Assembly (NCBI GenBank): GCA_947458475.1 | Contig: CANGZP010000007.1 | Span: 1-51,008 of the forward strand | DNA: 51,008 nt | From: Cyclobacteriaceae bacterium | GTDB lineage: Bacteria; Bacteroidota; Bacteroidia; Cytophagales; Cyclobacteriaceae | Reading direction: 5' to 3' | In this document: positions 2,234-10,113 of the stretch, in pieces | How positions within the stretch are numbered: position 1 is the stretch's first letter | How the letters are laid out: the number at the start of each line of letters is the position of its first letter | Notes under the pieces: model-generated | Databases searched by the model: none | The model's input: the letters and a program-made list of their open reading frames with translations, nothing else | What the model was told of the DNA's origin: nothing | Program-made: the position numbers and the translations under genes

Positions 2234-2341
2234 GTAGAAAAACAGAGTCACTTGGGTTTTGTTTGGGATTTAGCTGAGGGAAAAAGATTGGATTTTTCTT
2301 AGTTGAGGAAACTTTGAATGCTTCTTGGTGGTTTTTTGAGC

Positions 2342-3436
2342 ATGAACCCAGGTATACAGCAACTTTTTCCATTCTTAGAAAACTCCCCATCGACTGCTCC
2401 TTTCATCATTGCAGGGCCCTGCAGTGTGGAAACTCCCGAGCAGCTCGAGTCTACCGTAAGCCAGTTGGCCGGTAATGGCATATCGCTCATCCGAGCGGGA
2501 GTATGGAAACCACGAACACGCCCCAATGGATTTGAAGGTCTAGGAAGCCTTGCTTTGCCTTGGCTTCAGGAGACCAAGAAAAAAAATAAGGTGAAAATAG
2601 CGGTGGAAGTGGCTACAGCATACCATGTAGAAGAAGCCCTTCGAGCAGAAATAGATGTGCTTTGGATTGGAGCTCGCTCTACGGTAAATCCATTTACTGT
2701 AACTGAAATCGCAGAAAGTCTCCGAGGAGTTGACATCCCAGTTTTAGTCAAAAACCCCATTAATCCAGATTTAGGACTTTGGCTAGGTGCCTTTGAGCGG
2801 CTGGAACAAGTGGGTTTGAATCGACTGGGTGCAGTTCACCGTGGATTCTCAAACTTCAGAGATACCCTCCACCGAAATAGCCCCATGTGGGAATTGCCCA
2901 TTGAATTTAGAACCCTCCGACCTGAACTCGTCCTCATCAATGATCCTAGCCATATTTCTGGGAAGCGAGCCTTGGTAAAGGGCATTGCGCAGCATGCATT
3001 GGACTTGAACTTTGATGGCTTGATGATCGAATCACATGTGAATCCCGATCAAGCATGGACCGATGCGGCGCAGCAACTGACCCCTGGAGACTTGAAGAAA
3101 CTGATGGACGAACTGATCATAAGAAATGAACGATTCGAAGGTAGAGTGTCTTCTAATATTTTGGAAGACATTCGACAGCAAATCGACGAAGTAGACCGAG
3201 GCTTGCTTGAAGTATTGAGTAGACGCATGCATTTGGTTGAAAAAATAGGGTCCTACAAAAAGCAAAACAATGTAGCCGCATTCCAATTGGAGAGGTGGCA
3301 GGAAATTCTTTCTAGCCGCCCAAATTGGGCGAAAGCCTTCCAATTGAATCCCGAGGTGGTAACAGAATTATTTCGAATCATTCATCAAGAATCCATTCGA
3401 AAGCAAACTGAACTTTTAGACGAATCAAAAGACTAG
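2342..3436 (+). CDS. Bifunctional DAHP synthase / chorismate mutase, paralogue 1
   Basis: This predicted fusion enzyme catalyses the first step of the shikimate pathway (PEP + erythrose-4-phosphate to DAHP) and also chorismate to prephenate. The N-terminal domain (about residues 1–265) is a type I-beta DAHP synthase, shown by IIAGPCSVETPEQ, RAGVWKPRTRP, LWIGARSTVNPF, LVKNPINPD and INDPSHISGKR. The C-terminal domain (about 275–355) is an AroQ-type chorismate mutase (DIRQQIDEVDRGLLEVLSRR, VEKIGSYKK, HQESIRKQ). An upstream in-frame ATG at 2318 would add MLLGGFLS; the start at 2342 fits the family better. A divergent paralogue follows at 3830. Unlike that copy, no leader peptide or terminator precedes this one, so the two are likely regulated differently. 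Confidence 0.92.
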   Translation: MNPGIQQLFPFLENSPSTAPFIIAGPCSVETPEQLESTVSQLAGNGISLIRAGVWKPRTRPNGFEGLGSLALPWLQETKKKNKVKIAVEVATAYHVEEALRAEIDVLWIGARSTVNPFTVTEIAESLRGVDIPVLVKNPINPDLGLWLGAFERLEQVGLNRLGAVHRGFSNFRDTLHRNSPMWELPIEFRTLRPELVLINDPSHISGKRALVKGIAQHALDLNFDGLMIESHVNPDQAWTDAAQQLTPGDLKKLMDELIIRNERFEGRVSSNILEDIRQQIDEVDRGLLEVLSRRMHLVEKIGSYKKQNNVAAFQLERWQEILSSRPNWAKAFQLNPEVVTELFRIIHQESIRKQTELLDESKD

Positions 3437-3669
3437 GAATGTAAATGGGGTAATCTCGGACAACGACTTATTCATTTTCCCTTAAAAAAAATATATATAA
3501 ACTATTATTTCAAATTATAGCTTTTTGAAAAAATATTATTCTGTTTTAGACAAATACTGGTTTCAGAATTGAAATATTGTAAAAGTTATAGCCAGTTTAT
3601 TAGGGAAATGACAATTTATTGCAGAAAAAATAATTTTGCTTTTAAAAAATAGCCGATTACATTTACGAC
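3437..3669 (+). other. AT-rich non-coding spacer with promoter region
   Basis: No credible gene is visible between the first DAHP synthase copy and the leader ORF. The stretch is strongly AT-rich and holds a candidate -7 box at 3631–3638. I see no clear terminator directly behind the upstream gene. Confidence 0.6.
3631..3638 (+). promoter_or_regulatory. -7 box for the Phe/Tyr leader transcript
   Basis: TAATTTTG matches TAnnTTTG exactly and lies 31 bp upstream of the leader ORF start. Initiation would fall near 3644 and leave about 25 nt of AT-rich leader before the ATG. No clean -33 TTG is present at the expected distance, so this is a candidate only. Confidence 0.5.
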
Positions 3670-3765
3670 ATGTTCATCACAGCCGCAATCTATTTTAGCT
3701 TCTTTTACTTTTACTTTCGACAGAAGAATCGAATCGGAGCTGTGTATTGTCTAGCCAAAAACTAA
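3670..3765 (+). CDS. Phe/Tyr-rich leader peptide of an aromatic biosynthesis attenuator
   Basis: This is a 31-codon ORF, ATG to TAA. Residues 8–16 read Y-F-S-F-F-Y-F-Y-F, so eight of nine consecutive codons call for Phe or Tyr. Another Phe is at residue 2 and another Tyr at residue 26; there is no Trp. The ORF is followed by an intrinsic terminator (3782–3813), and its 3' half contains a segment complementary to the terminator's 5' arm. The downstream genes make Phe and Tyr. By the established logic of leader-peptide attenuation, scarcity of charged tRNA-Phe/Tyr would stall ribosomes on this run and favour antitermination. The peptide itself probably has no other job. As is usual in Bacteroidota, no Shine-Dalgarno is seen. 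Sequence evidence is strong; function is inferred. Confidence 0.85.
   Translation: MFITAAIYFSFFYFYFRQKNRIGAVYCLAKN
3716..3741 (+). promoter_or_regulatory. Attenuator segments 1 and 2 (pause hairpin and antiterminator arm)
   Basis: Segment 1 (TTCGA, 3716–3720) begins within the last Phe codon of the run and can pair with TCGAA at 3729–3733, giving a 5-bp hairpin with an 8-nt loop. Segment 2 (3729–3741, TCGAATCGGAGCT) can instead pair with 3784–3795 (AGCCCGATTCGA), forming 12 pairs with a single bulged A at 3738. That pairing uses the 5' arm of the terminator. A ribosome stalled on the Phe/Tyr codons would cover segment 1 and free segment 2. The pairings are read directly from sequence; the mechanism is inferred. 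Confidence 0.75.
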
Positions 3766-3781
3766 AAACACATAACAACAG

Positions 3782-3813
3782 AAAGCCCGATTCGAAAGAG
3801 TCGGGCTTTTTTT
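3782..3813 (+). terminator. Intrinsic terminator of the Phe/Tyr attenuator
   Basis: The arm 3782–3793 pairs with 3798–3809 in a 12-bp stem (one G·U) closed by a GAAA tetraloop. It is followed by a run of seven T at 3807–3813, the first three of which also pair in the stem. The terminator sits 17 bp before the ATG of the second DAHP synthase gene and 17 bp after the leader stop codon. It is therefore a conditional, pre-gene terminator and not the end of the upstream operon. Confidence 0.85.
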
Positions 3814-3829
3814 ATTTAACCGTAGTACT

Positions 3830-4912
3830 ATGAAGCCGCACAAGCAAATTAAAGACTGGGGACTTGGTCTCAGCAACCCAATGATCATCGGAGGCCCCTG
3901 CTCAGCAGAAACCCCAGAACAGATTGCACAAATCTGTTCCGAGATGAAGGAAAATCAAATCATTCCTCAGGTATTTAGAGCAGGCATTTGGAAGCCCCGC
4001 ACACGACCAGGATCTTTTGAAGGGGTTGGCGAGGAAGGACTGAAGTGGTTGGAGATTGTTCGAGAGGAGCTCCATATTCCAGTTACCGTAGAAGTAGGTA
4101 ATGCCGCCCATGTGGAAATGGCGCTCAAAAACAACATCGAAATTTTATGGATTGGGGCGCGTACAACGGTTAACCCATTTGCAGTGCAGGAAATTGCAGA
4201 GGCCCTGCGTGGCGTAGACATTCCGGTGATGATCAAAAACCCAATGAATCCAGACTTGGAGCTTTGGATGGGTGCGCTTGAACGCATGTATGCCGTGGGC
4301 ATCACCAAGCTAGCAGCCATCCACCGGGGCTTCTCGGATGCTTACGACAAGCGTTACCGCAACAAGCCCAACTGGTCTATGCCCATTCACTTGAAGCGCG
4401 AGTGGACGGGGATGGAAGTAATCAACGATCCTTCGCACATTGTAGGTCGAAGAGACGGCTTGCTGGAGGTAGCCCAAAGCGCGATGAACTTTGGTTTGGA
4501 TGGCTTAATGATCGAAACACACCACGATCCCGATAAGGCCTGGTCAGATGCCAAGCAGCAAGTGACCCCGAGCAGACTGAAAGAAATGATCGATTCAATC
4601 GACTTCAAACAGCCTTTGGATCTTGCACAAGGTGACGAAAAATTACTTGATCTTCGACGTGCAATAGACCACTTAGACGATCAGCTTTTGGATATTTTAC
4701 AAGAACGATTTTTGATTGTGGACCAGGTTGGGGCTTACAAGCGAGCCCGCCACCTGACTGTATTTCAATCGGACAGATGGCAAGAGGTGATGGACTCCAG
4801 AACTCAAAAAGGAGTCAAAAAACAGTTGAGCGAAAAATTCATGAAAGAACTGCTCTACTGCATCCATGAAGAATCTGTAAAGCGTCAAGAAAAACAACTT
4901 CGCGAAGCTTAA
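3830..4912 (+). CDS. Bifunctional DAHP synthase / chorismate mutase, paralogue 2
   Basis: This has the same two-domain architecture as the gene at 2342. The DAHP synthase domain covers about residues 1–260 (IIGGPCSAETPEQ, RAGIWKPRTRP, LWIGARTTVNPF, VINDPSHIVGRR). The AroQ chorismate mutase domain covers about 268–355 (DLRRAIDHLDDQLLDILQER, VDQVGAYKRAR, IHEESVKRQ). The two paralogues are clearly homologous throughout but diverged at many positions, which points to an old duplication. This copy is the first gene after the Phe/Tyr leader and terminator and heads a run of aromatic genes. It is therefore the natural candidate for the isoenzyme controlled by Phe/Tyr supply. Which allosteric effector inhibits each copy cannot be read from sequence. 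Confidence 0.93.
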   Translation: MKPHKQIKDWGLGLSNPMIIGGPCSAETPEQIAQICSEMKENQIIPQVFRAGIWKPRTRPGSFEGVGEEGLKWLEIVREELHIPVTVEVGNAAHVEMALKNNIEILWIGARTTVNPFAVQEIAEALRGVDIPVMIKNPMNPDLELWMGALERMYAVGITKLAAIHRGFSDAYDKRYRNKPNWSMPIHLKREWTGMEVINDPSHIVGRRDGLLEVAQSAMNFGLDGLMIETHHDPDKAWSDAKQQVTPSRLKEMIDSIDFKQPLDLAQGDEKLLDLRRAIDHLDDQLLDILQERFLIVDQVGAYKRARHLTVFQSDRWQEVMDSRTQKGVKKQLSEKFMKELLYCIHEESVKRQEKQLREA

Positions 4913-5000: not shown

Positions 5001-6044
5001 GTGGAAACCGTACTCTTCACAACTGACATCCAACATACCCTCGCAGAGGAACTTCAAGCACGAAGCTATTCCAAAGTAGTGGTGCTCACGGATGTAAACA
5101 CCCGCGAGCATTGCTTACCCTTGATTCAGGATGCTTTACCTTCAGACGCTGTACTAATTACAGTCCCTGCAGGGGAGCAGCACAAAACCTTGGAAACTTG
5201 CTCCAGCATTTGGACAGCGATGACCGAAGCGGTACTCGATCGGCATGCGCTAGTCATCAATTTAGGTGGTGGGGTGATTGGAGATATGGGTGGATTTTGC
5301 GCGAGTGTCTACAAAAGAGGAATTCCATTTTTGACCATACCCACAACCCTGCTTTCTCAAGTAGATGCGAGTGTCGGCGGGAAACTAGGGATAGACTTCA
5401 TGGGTTTTAAAAACCACCTGGGAGTATTTCAACTTCCTGAAAAAGTCCTAATTGATCCAATCTTCCTTGCTACCCTCCCACAACGTGAGTTACGCTCTGG
5501 CTATGCCGAGGTAATCAAACATGGACTAATTCGAGATATTACTTTCTTTAGAACCCTACCTTCAAAAGACTGGGAGCAACAAGACTGGACTCGGGTGATT
5601 CGGCATTCCGTAGGAGTTAAAAAAGCAGTAGTGGAGGTAGATCCCAAAGAAGCTGGCCTTCGAAAAATCCTCAATTTTGGACATACCATCGGACATGCGG
5701 TAGAGTCCTTTTACCTCAATAGCCCCAATCCCTTGCTCCATGGTGAGGCCATCGCAGTTGGGATGATCGCGGAAGGATTTTTATCTTTTGAGAAAATAGG
5801 ATTCAGCTTTGAGGAGCTAAAGGAGCTCAGCAGCAAGCTACTCCAGGTATTTGGCAAAGTGACTTTGAATACCAGCGACCTAGATGCAATTTTGGACCTA
5901 TGCGCCCAAGACAAAAAAAACGAAGGAAATACGCAGCTTTTCTCCCTTCTTCCCAGCCTTGGAGATTGCAGCTTTAATGTTCCTGTGACCCGAGAAGAGA
6001 TCAAACATGCGATCCTCTACTACCAACAATTGCCCTTGGCCTAA
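5001..6044 (+). CDS. aroB: 3-dehydroquinate synthase
   Basis: AroB converts DAHP to 3-dehydroquinate, the second step of the shikimate pathway, using NAD and a divalent metal. The 347-residue length is normal. The NAD-binding and family motifs are present (LGGGVIGDMGGFCASVYKRG, IPTTLLSQVDASVGGK). The expected metal ligands are also there: Glu in SGYAEVIKHG, His in LNFGHTIGHAVE and His in LLHGEAIAVGM. The start is GTG; the nearby ATG at 4994 is out of frame. It follows the DAHP synthase gene by 88 bp with no visible terminator and overlaps aroA by one base (TAATG), so it is probably part of the attenuated operon. Confidence 0.96.
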   Translation: METVLFTTDIQHTLAEELQARSYSKVVVLTDVNTREHCLPLIQDALPSDAVLITVPAGEQHKTLETCSSIWTAMTEAVLDRHALVINLGGGVIGDMGGFCASVYKRGIPFLTIPTTLLSQVDASVGGKLGIDFMGFKNHLGVFQLPEKVLIDPIFLATLPQRELRSGYAEVIKHGLIRDITFFRTLPSKDWEQQDWTRVIRHSVGVKKAVVEVDPKEAGLRKILNFGHTIGHAVESFYLNSPNPLLHGEAIAVGMIAEGFLSFEKIGFSFEELKELSSKLLQVFGKVTLNTSDLDAILDLCAQDKKNEGNTQLFSLLPSLGDCSFNVPVTREEIKHAILYYQQLPLA

Positions 6045-7297
6045 TGGATTATCAAAAAATACAGCTCTTACAGCTTACCCAAAAAAACGAGTTCTCCCGG
6101 GTACACATCCCACTCCCCTCCTCCAAGAGCGAATCCAACCGTGCCTTGGTGATTGATGCCTTGACGGAAGGAAAAAACACGCTAAATAACCTGGCGGAGG
6201 CGCGTGACACCCAAACGATGATCCGCCTGTTGCAAACCAATCCGGCTGTTTTTGATGTATTGGATGCAGGCACTACGATGCGTTTTTTAACTGCTTATGC
6301 GGCAGTTACCAATCAACAAAAAGTAATGACAGGTACTCCTCGCATGTGCGAACGCCCCATCGGAATATTGGTGGACGCTTTGCGAAGCCTAGGTGCGGAG
6401 ATCCATTACCTCGGTGTGGAAGGCTATCCCCCGCTTGCAGTCCAAGGATTGCGGGAGCAACTCACCCATCAAATCCGAATTCGTGGCGACGTATCCAGTC
6501 AATACATTTCGGCTCTCCTGATGATCGCTCCTGTATTGCCAAAAGGCTTGGAATTGGAACTTGAAGGCAAGGTTGGAAGCCGTACCTACATTGAAATGAC
6601 CCTGCAGCTGATGGCCCAATTTGGAATCATCTCCAGCTGGGCAGGCGCTACGATAAAAATTGAACCGCAAGTTTACCAAAGCACCCAATTCACTGTGGAG
6701 AGCGATTGGTCAGGAGCGAGCTACTGGTTTAGCTTGTTGGCCTGTGCGGATGAAGGATCCTTTTTTCTAGAAGGCCTAAAAGCTCAAAGTCTCCAAGGAG
6801 ATGCAGCCATTGTAGCGATCATGGGGCATTTGGGGATACGAAGCACCTTTCAAGAAGGGGGTTTACTACTCGAAAAGCAAGCCATAACTGGCCTCAAAGA
6901 ATGGGATTTTACCCACTGCCCGGATTTGGCGCAGACCGTAGCGGTTACCTGTGCAATTTTGGGCCAAAACACTGTATTTACGGGGCTTGAAAGCCTGCGA
7001 ATCAAGGAAACCGATCGAATCCATGCCTTACAGCAGGAATTGGCAAAGTTTAACGCTGAGTTACGGGAAATTGCAGCTGATACTTTTCAGGTAATCCCCT
7101 CGGTGACCATGCCAAGATTGGTACAAATTCATACCTACGATGACCACCGCATGGCCATGGCCTTTATGCCCTTGGTCACGAAAACCAAGGTACGGATTGA
7201 AGACCCAGAAGTAGTCAATAAATCCTATCCTAGTTTTTGGAAGCAGGTGGCCTTGACGGGCATTGCTCAAGAAACTTATACTCCAGGCATTTTATGA
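6044..7297 (+). CDS. aroA: EPSP synthase (3-phosphoshikimate 1-carboxyvinyltransferase)
   Basis: AroA transfers the enolpyruvyl group of PEP to shikimate-3-phosphate, the penultimate step to chorismate. The 417-residue length is slightly short but usual for Bacteroidota. Visible motifs are LPSSKSESNRALVIDAL (SKSxSNR loop), DAGTTMRFL, RIKETDRIHAL and TYDDHRMAM. The ATG overlaps the aroB stop as TAATG, and the gene ends in an ATGA overlap with pheA, so translation is probably coupled across all three. The intermediate genes aroD/E/K and the last gene aroC are not in this window. Confidence 0.95.
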   Translation: MDYQKIQLLQLTQKNEFSRVHIPLPSSKSESNRALVIDALTEGKNTLNNLAEARDTQTMIRLLQTNPAVFDVLDAGTTMRFLTAYAAVTNQQKVMTGTPRMCERPIGILVDALRSLGAEIHYLGVEGYPPLAVQGLREQLTHQIRIRGDVSSQYISALLMIAPVLPKGLELELEGKVGSRTYIEMTLQLMAQFGIISSWAGATIKIEPQVYQSTQFTVESDWSGASYWFSLLACADEGSFFLEGLKAQSLQGDAAIVAIMGHLGIRSTFQEGGLLLEKQAITGLKEWDFTHCPDLAQTVAVTCAILGQNTVFTGLESLRIKETDRIHALQQELAKFNAELREIAADTFQVIPSVTMPRLVQIHTYDDHRMAMAFMPLVTKTKVRIEDPEVVNKSYPSFWKQVALTGIAQETYTPGIL

Positions 7298-8112
7298 AAG
7301 TAGCAATTCAAGGAATTCCTGGTTCCTTCCACCACCAGGTTGCGCTGTTGAATTTTGGGAAAGAGGTCCAAGTTCTTCCTTTCTTGAGCTTCGAAGAGGT
7401 AGCCAAGTCAGTAGCCTCAGGCGCTGCGGAACTGGGCATCATGGCCATCGAAAACTCCATTGCAGGTGCGATTCTTCCAAATTACGATCTGATTGATCGC
7501 TACGATCTAGTGATTCATGAGGAATACTACTTGCCCATTTCCCATCAGTTGATGGCCTTGCCAGGGCAAACTATTGCCGACCTGACTGAGGTACGCTCCC
7601 ATCCTATGGCGCTACTGCAGTGCAAGGCTTTCCTCTCGAAGCATCCACAAATCCAACTGATCGATGACCTAGACACTGCTTCGGTTGCCAAACGTATTCA
7701 GGAAGATAAACTCCGAGGAGTCGCTGCCATTGCCAGTGAGATCGCTGCTGAAACCTATGGATTAGAGATTCTAGCGCCACAGATTCAAACCGTAAAAGAT
7801 AATTTCACCCGGTTTATCTTTCTAACAAAGGAGAAATCAAACCGAAGTGAAGCTGCCAACAAGGTTTCCTTCAAGATCACCATCCGGAATGAGGCGGGAG
7901 GATTGGCCAAGCTCCTGACGATGCTTGCAGACAAAAATCTGAATTTGAGTAAAATTCAATCCATCCCGGTGATGGATACTCCCTGGGATTATGCCTTTTT
8001 CATCGATGCAGAATTTGTAGCCGAGCAGTCCTACCAAGAAGCTGTAGACCAAATGAAACAGCACTTTGGAGAGTTGAAAATTTTCGGAGAATATACGAGC
8101 AGAAAAGGATGA
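7294..8112 (+). CDS. pheA: Prephenate dehydratase
   Basis: PheA decarboxylates and dehydrates prephenate to phenylpyruvate, the committed step to phenylalanine. The protein has 272 residues with a periplasmic-binding-like catalytic domain (about 1–180, including IMAIENSIAGAI and the catalytic TRF triad in NFTRFIFL). A C-terminal ACT domain follows (about 195–270, GGLAKLLTMLADKNLNLSKI). The canonical Phe-binding ESRP motif of the ACT domain reads QSIP here, which may alter or weaken allosteric control; I recall similar changes in other Bacteroidota. The start at 7294 (MKVAIQGIPG) is chosen over the upstream in-frame codon at 7237 because of the ATGA overlap with aroA. It also overlaps the next gene by ATGA. 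No chorismate mutase domain is fused, since that activity sits on the DAHP synthases. Confidence 0.94.
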   Translation: MKVAIQGIPGSFHHQVALLNFGKEVQVLPFLSFEEVAKSVASGAAELGIMAIENSIAGAILPNYDLIDRYDLVIHEEYYLPISHQLMALPGQTIADLTEVRSHPMALLQCKAFLSKHPQIQLIDDLDTASVAKRIQEDKLRGVAAIASEIAAETYGLEILAPQIQTVKDNFTRFIFLTKEKSNRSEAANKVSFKITIRNEAGGLAKLLTMLADKNLNLSKIQSIPVMDTPWDYAFFIDAEFVAEQSYQEAVDQMKQHFGELKIFGEYTSRKG

Positions 8113-9263
8113 AGGGATTTGCAAACAGGATTCAAGGGGTAGAGGAATACTATTTTTCCGCCAAACTGCGGGAAGTCAATCGCCTACTTGCTGAAGGAAA
8201 GCCAGTATTGAATTTAGGAATCGGCTCCCCCGATCTCGCACCCGATCGTAGCGTAATCGAAGCCTTAAAAAGCACCGCTGAAAACGAGCAGGCGCATGGC
8301 TATCAGGGCTATCAAGGTATTGCAGCCTTGCGCGCAGCCATGGCCAACTATTACCAACAAGCATTTGGGGTGCAGCTAGACCCCAATAGGGAGATTCTCC
8401 CTTTGATGGGTTCGAAGGAAGGAGTTTTTCAAGTTAGCATGGCCTTTTTGAATCCGGGAGATCAGGTTCTGATTCCTAATCCGGGCTATCCTACTTATTC
8501 GGCAGTCACCCAACTCCTTGGCGCAAGTCCTATTTATTACAGCTTGGATTTGAGCGAGCAGGGTCGACCTAACTTGGAGGAACTTGAACTACTGGACTTG
8601 AGTCGCGTCAAATTGATGTGGATCAATTACCCACACATGCCTACTGGAGCCCCTGGTTCAGAGATAGTTTTGGCAGAGCTAATTGCCTTTGCGCAGCGGA
8701 ATGCCATTTTACTCGTGCATGACAATCCCTACAGCCATATTTTAAACTCCGCTCCTAAAAGCTTGCTAGCAGTACCAGGTGGCAAGGAGGTGGGCTTGGA
8801 ACTCAACTCACTCAGTAAAACCTTCAATATCCCGGGCTGGCGCGTGGGCATGCTTTGCGGAAAATCGGAATGGGTGGAGGCTGCGCTAAAAGTCAAATCC
8901 AACATGGACTCAGGCATGTTTTTGGGACTTCAAAAAGGTGCAATTGCAGCCCTTTCACTCGAAAAAGGCTGGTTTGACCGACAAAATGAAATTTACGCTA
9001 CCCGTCGAAAGCTAGTTTGGACGCTTGCTGATCAGTTGGGATTGACCTATGACCGCGAAGCTGCGGGACTTTTTGTCTGGTGCAAAATGCCAGAAGGAGC
9101 CTCTGCTGAGGAGTTGGTGGACCGGTTACTTTATGAAAAAAACATCTTTATTACACCAGGGAAAATTTTTGGATCTGAGGGAAATTCCTACGTCCGAATT
9201 TCTCTTTGCCTCCAAGAATTTAAAATTTTAGAAGCCATCAATCGCATCAAACCTACTTCCTAA
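8109..9263 (+). CDS. Class I/II PLP-dependent aminotransferase (probable aromatic aminotransferase)
   Basis: This is a fold-type I aminotransferase of 384 residues. The PLP-binding Lys237 is in NSLSKTFNIPGWRVG; other family marks are GYQGYQGIAALR, PNPGYPTYS, HDNPYSH and the C-terminal YVRISL. The gene sits between pheA and tyrA with an ATGA overlap upstream and only 1 bp downstream. Its likely role is therefore the last step, transferring an amino group to phenylpyruvate and 4-hydroxyphenylpyruvate to yield Phe and Tyr. The substrate is inferred from context; sequence alone also allows an aspartate or LL-diaminopimelate type aminotransferase. Confidence 0.9.
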   Translation: MKGFANRIQGVEEYYFSAKLREVNRLLAEGKPVLNLGIGSPDLAPDRSVIEALKSTAENEQAHGYQGYQGIAALRAAMANYYQQAFGVQLDPNREILPLMGSKEGVFQVSMAFLNPGDQVLIPNPGYPTYSAVTQLLGASPIYYSLDLSEQGRPNLEELELLDLSRVKLMWINYPHMPTGAPGSEIVLAELIAFAQRNAILLVHDNPYSHILNSAPKSLLAVPGGKEVGLELNSLSKTFNIPGWRVGMLCGKSEWVEAALKVKSNMDSGMFLGLQKGAIAALSLEKGWFDRQNEIYATRRKLVWTLADQLGLTYDREAAGLFVWCKMPEGASAEELVDRLLYEKNIFITPGKIFGSEGNSYVRISLCLQEFKILEAINRIKPTS

Positions 9264-9264
9264 C

Positions 9265-10113
9265 ATGAAAAAAATACACTTGATTGGATTGGGCCTCTTG
9301 GGAGGATCCTTTGCACTAGCTGCCAAACAAAAATTTTCCGAACTAGTACTTACGGGACAGGACACCAATCCGCAACACCTCCAAGATGCACTTGCATTGG
9401 GCATCATTTCGGAAGAGGTTTCCGGACCCGATGCCGATACAGATTTGGTGATTTTAGCTACTCCGGCCAATAGTCTAGGGGATTTACTTCTGAAAACTCT
9501 GGATCAAATCGGTCCCAACACCTTAGTCTTTGATTTGGGATCCACCAAAGCCAAACTTTGCGCTATGGTGGCCTCACACCCCAAAAGATCCCAATACCTC
9601 GCGACCCACCCCATCGCAGGCACGGAGTATTCAGGCCCAAAAGCTGCTTCTGCAACTTTGCTAGATCGGAAAGTAATGATCTTATGTGAGCTGGAAAAGA
9701 CAGACCTGCACCTGAAGGAAAAAGCCTATCGCCTCTTTGATGCGCTAAACTTGAAACTTCGGTTTATGAATCCCGAAGAACACGATCGGCATTTGGCTTA
9801 TGTCTCCCATTTATCGCACTTGACTTCTTTTATGTTGGGAAAAACCGTCCTCCAAAAAATGGAAGACGAGAAGAATATTTTTGACATGGCAGGTTCTGGG
9901 TTCTCCTCAACCGTTCGCCTTGCCAAGTCAAGTCCAGACATGTGGGCCCCTATTTTTATTGAAAACAAGGAGAATATTTTAGCCTCTTTGGATGGATACA
10001 TTGCGAATCTCAGCGCATTTCGTGAAAAAATCGCAGCTGGTGATGGTGAGGGGTTGAAAAAAGAAATGGAAGAAATCAACACCATTCGTGGGATTTTAGA
10101 TTTCGGAAAGTAG
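9265..10113 (+). CDS. tyrA: Prephenate dehydrogenase
   Basis: TyrA oxidatively decarboxylates prephenate to 4-hydroxyphenylpyruvate, the committed step to tyrosine. The protein has 282 residues. An N-terminal Rossmann domain has the dinucleotide motif IGLGLLGGSFALAAK, followed by LVILATPAN and VFDLGSTKA. The catalytic region shows THPIAGTEYSGP and the His-containing HDRHLAYVSHLSHLTSF. No ACT or chorismate mutase domain is fused. It begins one base after the aminotransferase stop and closes the run of aromatic genes. No clear terminator is visible in the 98 bp that follow. Confidence 0.94.
   Translation: MKKIHLIGLGLLGGSFALAAKQKFSELVLTGQDTNPQHLQDALALGIISEEVSGPDADTDLVILATPANSLGDLLLKTLDQIGPNTLVFDLGSTKAKLCAMVASHPKRSQYLATHPIAGTEYSGPKAASATLLDRKVMILCELEKTDLHLKEKAYRLFDALNLKLRFMNPEEHDRHLAYVSHLSHLTSFMLGKTVLQKMEDEKNIFDMAGSGFSSTVRLAKSSPDMWAPIFIENKENILASLDGYIANLSAFREKIAAGDGEGLKKEMEEINTIRGILDFGK

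Follow-up and report, generated by a model that had tools for sequence, protein, structure and literature searches.

A putative Phe/Tyr-sensing leader peptide attenuator ahead of the aromatic amino-acid operon in Cyclobacteriaceae

At the head of an aromatic amino-acid operon, we found a short Phe/Tyr-rich ORF that very probably belongs to a ribosome-mediated transcription attenuator, predicted to sense the charging of tRNA-Phe and tRNA-Tyr. It lies in the window, the 51,008-nucleotide stretch of Cyclobacteriaceae DNA that was analysed, which comes from a draft genome of 2.77 Mb with an estimated completeness of 78.7%. The ORF, its aromatic run, a terminator and an antiterminator, as well as their spacing and conservation, are read directly from the sequence. 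Leader-peptide attenuation had already been put forward in the initial annotation of this DNA, and it is strengthened here by the antiterminator that the idea requires, which turned up in each of the 84 leaders tested and in which bases of both strands differ between clades. The terminator, the antiterminator and a promoter box abutting the start codon were absent from that account. To our knowledge, little has been described of how Bacteroidota control amino-acid synthesis. The leader would be a sensor for the entire Phe/Tyr operon that lends itself to testing, and the same principle may act across much of the class.

The leader ORF has 31 codons (MFITAAIYFSFFYFYFRQKNRIGAVYCLAKN; 3670..3765, forward strand) and is present as first described: eight of the nine residues 8-16 are aromatic, and the peptide has ten Phe/Tyr and no Trp in total. 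It is supported by the list of ORFs and by conservation, and its translation is probably leaderless. The regulatory run, codons 8-16 or YFSFFYFYF (3691..3717, forward strand), is the presumed stall site if Phe- or Tyr-tRNA is uncharged. The ORF stands just ahead of the second DAHP synthase–chorismate mutase gene, with 64 nt from its stop codon to the ATG at 3830. This second paralogue (3830..4912, forward strand; PF00793 and PF01817) is the first gene past the attenuator. The genes named behind it in the initial annotation were confirmed with NCBIfam and Pfam, all on the forward strand: aroB with a GTG start (5001-6044), aroA (6044-7297), pheA encoding prephenate dehydratase (7288-8112), a class I/II aminotransferase (8109-9263), and tyrA encoding prephenate dehydrogenase (9265-10113). 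aroB is set off by a gap of about 90 nt, and the later genes are packed or overlapping on the same strand; 5001..10113 is presumed to be the remainder of one operon with the DAHP synthase–chorismate mutase gene. Directly upstream of the leader lies a diverged DAHP synthase–chorismate mutase paralogue (2318-3436), and the tandem pair is kept in several relatives.

Between the leader ORF and the DAHP synthase–chorismate mutase gene, the window holds a single strong intrinsic terminator (3780..3818, forward strand), with a stem at 3780-3811 followed by a T tract (-21.8 kcal/mol, z -8.9). The 5' arm of this terminator can base-pair with the 3' half of the ORF (3728-3742). The 5' strand of the predicted antiterminator, region 2, covers codons 20-25 (3728..3742, forward strand) and forms a duplex of -19.1 kcal/mol (p 0.005) with region 3, the 3' strand, which sits inside the 5' arm of the terminator (3783..3796, forward strand) and is supported by predicted folding and by paired changes across leaders. 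When the window RNA was cut before the 3' arm of the terminator, it folded into the antiterminator at -17.7 kcal/mol, and 0 of 200 shuffles folded as well.

We infer that the ORF is translated from a leaderless start, that the ribosome stalls on the run, that the RNA switches between the two structures, and that region 2 is hidden in a fed cell. Transcription would start at, or a few bases from, the leader ATG, and a ribosome would load on the 5'-terminal AUG. With Phe- or Tyr-tRNA short, it would stall within codons 8-16, and its leading edge would not quite reach region 2. Region 2 would then pair with region 3 immediately upon transcription of the latter. The terminator would be blocked, and RNA polymerase would continue into the DAHP synthase–chorismate mutase, aroB, aroA, pheA, aminotransferase and tyrA genes. 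With Phe and Tyr both plentiful, the ribosome would traverse region 2, leaving it covered or re-paired with region 1; regions 3 and 4 would pair, and transcription would end ahead of the genes.

The geometry of the leaders is consistent with this mechanism. From the end of the run to region 2, the spacing had a median of 10 nt across 84 leaders (10th-90th percentile 10-11.7, range 5-17). By toe-print geometry, when the last run codon occupies the A site, the ribosome shields about 12 nt past the first base of that codon. Given this coverage and a spacing of about 10 nt, the edge of a ribosome stalled at the last run codon would fall just at region 2. The window RNA ahead of such a ribosome folded into the antiterminator (-17.7 kcal/mol) while region 4 was unmade. 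Once the full RNA was made, the terminator reached -24.2 kcal/mol against -19.4 kcal/mol for the enforced antiterminator. Since the finished terminator is the more stable of the two, the antiterminator must win kinetically, by forming first.

To follow the leader in relatives, 78 DAHP synthase loci were taken from a scan of genome contigs. Sixty-one of them had at least 60% identity, and 59 of these carried the leader; one of the other two (L057) had no upstream DNA and the other (L036) had no leader in 195 nt. In one leader (L013), two run codons were lost through a 6-base deletion. A wider search covered 291 genomes from the order and 118 from the family, and upstream regions were extracted from them. 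In the genera that this added, the aromatic run was retained within peptides that otherwise differ markedly, such as MRKTQGRFYFYFYFSPFRRVGPCYAM and MIQEQTIFYFFYYRPQGVGSGLF. Leaders were also found in two other families: MKFFNATYYFYWFYFRTRSVKECWSYCTC at one locus (L110), and three more (L121, L205 and L206, with YFSFYYFWY). Ninety distinct ORFs passed the run filter and 84 had a strong terminator (median -19.3 kcal/mol); the six without one, at loci without further leader signs, were dropped. Because of this, the presence of a terminator in every one of the 84 leaders is partly a product of selection. The 84 represent 99 loci including duplicates, and 80 were placed in the window's family, either by the label of their genome or because they are close to genomes so labelled; since one genus supplied many of the loci, the counts are not independent. 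One further leader outside the 84 was read by eye (L175): MRSTKNFYFFFYFSIRRITGQRFYC with a terminator, and GATATTTG 7 nt before the ATG.

Two observations were made in Algoriphagus. The locus without a leader in the 195 nt upstream of the gene is that of Algoriphagus faecimaris (L036, identical to L087), and two similar copies of a motif around TTCCAGGTGACC/TTCCATGTGACC lie in this stretch, which gives the impression that the leader was replaced by a mobile element. In one Algoriphagus species, about 90 extra bases lie between the terminator and the gene (L042 and L090). Among the duplicates are two entries of one A. boseongensis locus (L083 and L027), and through such matches to named strains the window falls within Algoriphagus or next to it.

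Further out, no aromatic leader was found within 400-450 nt of DAHP synthase at L109, at 55 of the 56 loci L111-L166 (all but L121), at 28 of 28 loci L177-L204, or at the loci L065-L081, which come from Flavobacteriaceae, Saprospiraceae, Fluviicola, Alistipes and Acidobacteria (L081 is almost without upstream DNA). At some DAHP synthase loci lacking an aromatic leader, tyrA precedes the DAHP synthase gene. Four loci (L068, L070, L073 and L079) have an aromatic-run leader with a terminator further upstream than 400-450 nt.

Across the 84 leaders, the predicted antiterminator pairing was better than in shuffled sequences in every case (p<=0.05), reached the floor of 0.005 in 69, and had a median of -18.5 kcal/mol. 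With each leader set at its own best register, positions 5, 6, 7, 9 and 10 of region 3 each had between three and five kinds of standard pair; both bases differ between clades, and 0 to 9 of the 84 leaders were unpaired at these positions.

Codon changes were counted on the tree of the downstream gene in 60 core leaders out of the 84, a set that omits the diverged clades and two leaders with indels (L013 and L031). The eight aromatic codons of the run (8, 9 and 11-16) had 20 silent changes and five in which one of Phe, Tyr and Trp took the place of another, with no replacement of any other kind; codon 10, a Ser/Thr codon within the run, had seven silent and six replacing changes. In the flanks, there were 25 silent and 48 replacing changes at codons 2-7, and nine and 41 at codons 17-20, that is, 89 replacing against 34 silent. 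Codons 21-23, on the antiterminator strand, had one silent and no replacing change and are nearly frozen even at silent sites. By this pattern, it is the amino acids that are conserved in the run, and the bases in the antiterminator. A genuine leader had been expected to keep its Phe/Tyr codons while the rest drifts, and this is what the counts show. They also refute an origin by chance, in which an aromatic-rich ORF in AT-rich intergenic DNA would simply lie beside the ordinary terminator of the upstream DAHP synthase gene. The region is indeed AT-rich, but the conservation data argue against this reading, as do the scan controls given below, and we give it practically no chance. The first aromatic doublet stands at codon 8 in 78 of the 84 leaders, including some from families with the promoter box further upstream, a rule that is open to experiment.

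The C-terminal RIGAVYCLAKN is well conserved in the core clade, as would suit a nascent-peptide or reinitiation effect. The terminator would then act, and a conserved peptide would arrest the ribosome or aid the next gene, with no role for tRNA charging. However, codons 21-23 are accounted for by the antiterminator strand, where silent sites are nearly frozen too, and the C-terminal part is lost in other clades (MKTLFAAYFYFFYFFTKVR, MLAARTSFYYFFYFRTHSGSGLRYH) while the aromatic run stays. The ORF and the gene are also separated by 64 nt and a terminator. We regard this explanation as very unlikely.

A switch between terminator and antiterminator also resembles those of riboswitches, and a metabolite- or tRNA-binding RNA (a riboswitch or T-box) could drive the terminator with the U-rich ORF incidental. 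Yet no Rfam family exceeded its gathering score at positions 3400-3900 of the window, where all 16 matches fell below it, and there were no matches in eight related loci, which included two hisG loci and two with WWW leaders. Moreover, conservation of the run tracks amino acids and not bases. This possibility appears to us even more improbable than an effect of the nascent peptide. The E. coli pheA leader has the same working principle as the attenuator proposed here, with Phe codons, an antiterminator and a terminator. It belongs to a different RNA family (Phe_leader, RF01859), for which the window scored 16.3 bits against a gathering score of 55.

Of the whole attenuation model, we are least sure of the fed state. 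Region 1 (codons 3-7; 3678..3689, forward strand) would pair with region 2 and its 3' flank (3733-3744), a pairing with moderate support. In the alignment, 85.2% of cells were paired, against 18-45% when the strands were slid, and there was one A-U to G-C double change, common to 12 related sequences. Pairs with double changes numbered two, no more than in shuffles, and the single-sequence shuffle test gave p<=0.05 in 18 of the 84 leaders. For these last two results, we dropped the hairpin of regions 1 and 2 as a clear-cut part of the model. In the window's clade, the ORF continues for about 20 nt beyond region 2. A ribosome that has reached the stop codon would therefore not cover region 2 but leave it open, and the hairpin would then be needed in the fed state. 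It may also suffice that the ribosome passes over region 2. A link between a stop codon at region 2 and the lack of this hairpin was also considered; recomputed with a cleaner definition of region 1, it was a weak trend (Spearman p 0.11; Mann-Whitney p 0.02, on related sequences).

Upstream of the leader, the predicted promoter (3635..3665, forward strand) has a -33 box TTTG at 3635-3638, a 19-nt spacer and a -7 box TACATTTA at 3658-3665, with a predicted start at about 3670. In Flavobacterium, the -7 box TAnnTTTG occupies -12 to -5 (PMC9723704), and the same promoter consensus is given in PMC7366714. In the window, the -7 box ends 4 nt before the leader ATG. The leader is, for this reason, probably leaderless in the window's family. 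If the Flavobacterium box geometry applies, transcription probably begins on the A of the leader ATG, a prediction carried over from another genus than the window's.

The position of the box is nearly invariant in the family. In 76 of 80 distinct leaders, TANNTTTR was followed after exactly 4 nt by the start codon; mononucleotide shuffles gave 0.0037 per sequence, and at the main gene start the box had this position in 1 of 80. Of the remaining four, two had the box at 6 and 8 nt, and two (L172 and L173), with a C in first place, had it at 5 nt. TTTG was found 19 nt above the -7 box in 63 of the 80, and 10 of the 80 had no TTTG or TTG at 17-21 nt. In one leader (L105), GTG replaces ATG at the same box distance. 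Genome-wide, the full promoter pattern had two matches in the window's own genome, one of them the leader, against one for the backward control; in three other genomes (G035, G218 and G385), there were 2, 7 and 10 matches against 3, 3 and 6, and the leader was one of them in each. Outside the family, no -7 box was found for L110.

The ORF could also be translated from a longer mRNA begun upstream, leaving the abutting box unused. Boxes further off do occur outside the family, at 29-36 nt before the start codon in family f4 and at 17-32 nt in nine of the 11 leaders ahead of pheA that have a box. Furthermore, leaderless mRNAs are a small minority in two Bacteroidota, with 5.5% in one (PMC9723704) and 3.7% with 5' leaders under 10 nt in the other (PMC7366714). 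Nevertheless, the exact 4-nt distance, the TTTG at 19 nt and the scarcity of the full pattern genome-wide argue against a longer mRNA, which we judge unlikely, albeit the most serious of the alternatives. Bacteroidota do not rely on Shine-Dalgarno sequences. If the leaderless start is true, RNA polymerase and ribosome would set off from the same point, a natural test of ribosome loading in step with RNA polymerase without Shine-Dalgarno pairing.

Aromatic-run leaders are not restricted to DAHP synthase genes. We sampled 20 pheA regions, about one per genus and two of them from the window's own family, picked from class- and family-level matches; the class is presumably Bacteroidia. An aromatic-run ORF with a terminator was found upstream of pheA in 17 of the 20 genomes, and the same scan gave 0 of 20 in reverse complements, 1 of 100 in dinucleotide shuffles and 0 of 26 in hisG/ilvD regions. 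These controls bear out the earlier claim that a Phe/Tyr leader before aromatic genes is unlikely to arise by chance. Among the 30 best-scoring pheA loci of a phylum-wide search, 29 of them outside the class, none had a pheA leader; with the lone class member (L281), the class total becomes 17 of 21. Both genomes of the window's family (L310 and L311) have a pheA leader, and one of them has none upstream of DAHP synthase (L204). Of 21 pheA-type leaders, 17 passed the antiterminator test and four failed. A -7 box was not found in 10 of the 21, and it lay at 8 nt in L296 and at 41 nt in L301, besides the nine mentioned above. The initial annotation had taken the leader to be specific for Phe and Tyr; this fits the run of the window, which has no Trp, but does not extend to the whole class, since a number of pheA-type runs in other genomes include a Trp codon.

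Compared with the literature, the mechanism is known, the leader is apparently undescribed, and the leaderless start would be a new trait. Related predictions may lie inside the comparative work of Vitreschak 2004 and Lopatovskaya 2010. The former is said to mention Bacteroidetes. In Corynebacterium glutamicum, the ilvB leader peptide is reportedly formed without a ribosome-binding site, to go by the title of a paper cited in the study of the aroF leader. Like ours, this aroF leader is an ORF with Phe/Tyr codons before a DAHP synthase gene, but it belongs to Actinobacteria, has three aromatic codons (Phe-Tyr-Phe) and differs in sequence (PMC4046766); ilvB, leuA and trpE have leaders likewise in that species (PMC4046766), and the Phe-Tyr-Phe leader is also named in PMC3890552. 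The uORFC-13-1 motif at aroF in Acholeplasma similarly combines a candidate Phe uORF and a terminator before DAHP synthase; unlike the present leader, it has a ribosome-binding site, 24 sequences, and at least one Phe codon in place of a run of Phe/Tyr codons (PMC8632094). The trpL attenuator transcript of Sinorhizobium meliloti starts at the leader ATG and is leaderless, although it concerns Trp and Alphaproteobacteria (PMC7298713).

Closer to the window, the amino-acid operons of F. psychrophilum were reported to give 'strong clues' for leader-peptide attenuation, with structured 5' elements at pheA and hisG that are conserved in other Flavobacteriaceae and lack Rfam hits (PMC9723704). The pheA element shares the phylum and the pathway and is possibly a leader of the pheA type, but the accessible part of that source gives no peptide, specificity or leaderless start for it, and the first gene is another. 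In Bacteroides, short ORFs were called 'reminiscent of leader peptides' (PMC7366714). The initial annotation, which knew of no described Phe/Tyr leader in Bacteroidota, is to be corrected to this extent. The titles and abstract openings covered name no Bacteroidota Phe/Tyr leader at DAHP synthase, no leaderless attenuator in this phylum and, PMC9723704 and PMC7366714 aside, no attenuator there of any sort, and the accessible parts of PMC4833913 and PMC1262725 hold nothing bearing on a Phe/Tyr leader in Bacteroidota; clues to attenuation as such do exist in the phylum (PMC9723704).

Candidate attenuators for other amino acids were found in the same genomes. A short ORF with a His cluster was present upstream of hisG in 12 of 12 genomes searched, and in the window's own genome it is the His-rich MKSNAAILTFSLPAQVHHLLHHFHHSS, with a -7 box 7 nt before the ATG. 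With the stricter pattern HH..HH, 11 of the 12 hisG loci were retained, all with a -7 box 6-9 nt before an ORF ATG. At these 11 loci, our script found only weak hairpins, in three of them, and it found no strong terminator at the hisG locus of the own genome. Upstream of chorismate-binding genes, a WWW leader with a terminator was found at 12 of 21 loci examined (out of 30 extracted), one in each of 12 genomes, with a -7 box 5-17 nt before the ATG; the own genome has MKTIANNYWWWHSKSFLGKAQKAVA, with a terminator. The His and Trp leaders of the window's family therefore look near-leaderless, by the positions of their predicted boxes.

Taking the leaders together, we see about even chances for a broader reading. 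Attenuators of the window's family would start translation at transcript base 1 (Phe/Tyr) or within about a dozen bases (His and Trp). A fixed layout, with the ATG at +1, the run from codon 8 and the antiterminator about 10 nt further on, would be selected and would solve the timing of attenuation without a ribosome-binding site. Aromatic attenuation would be widespread in the class, placed before whichever gene of the Phe/Tyr operon comes first. Finally, weak Ile/Leu-rich short ORFs (for example, MYPLVILLSFIILIGFTK) precede ilvD-family genes at six of 14 loci, five of them in genomes of the window's genus and the sixth in another genome, and are possible candidates for branched-chain leaders.
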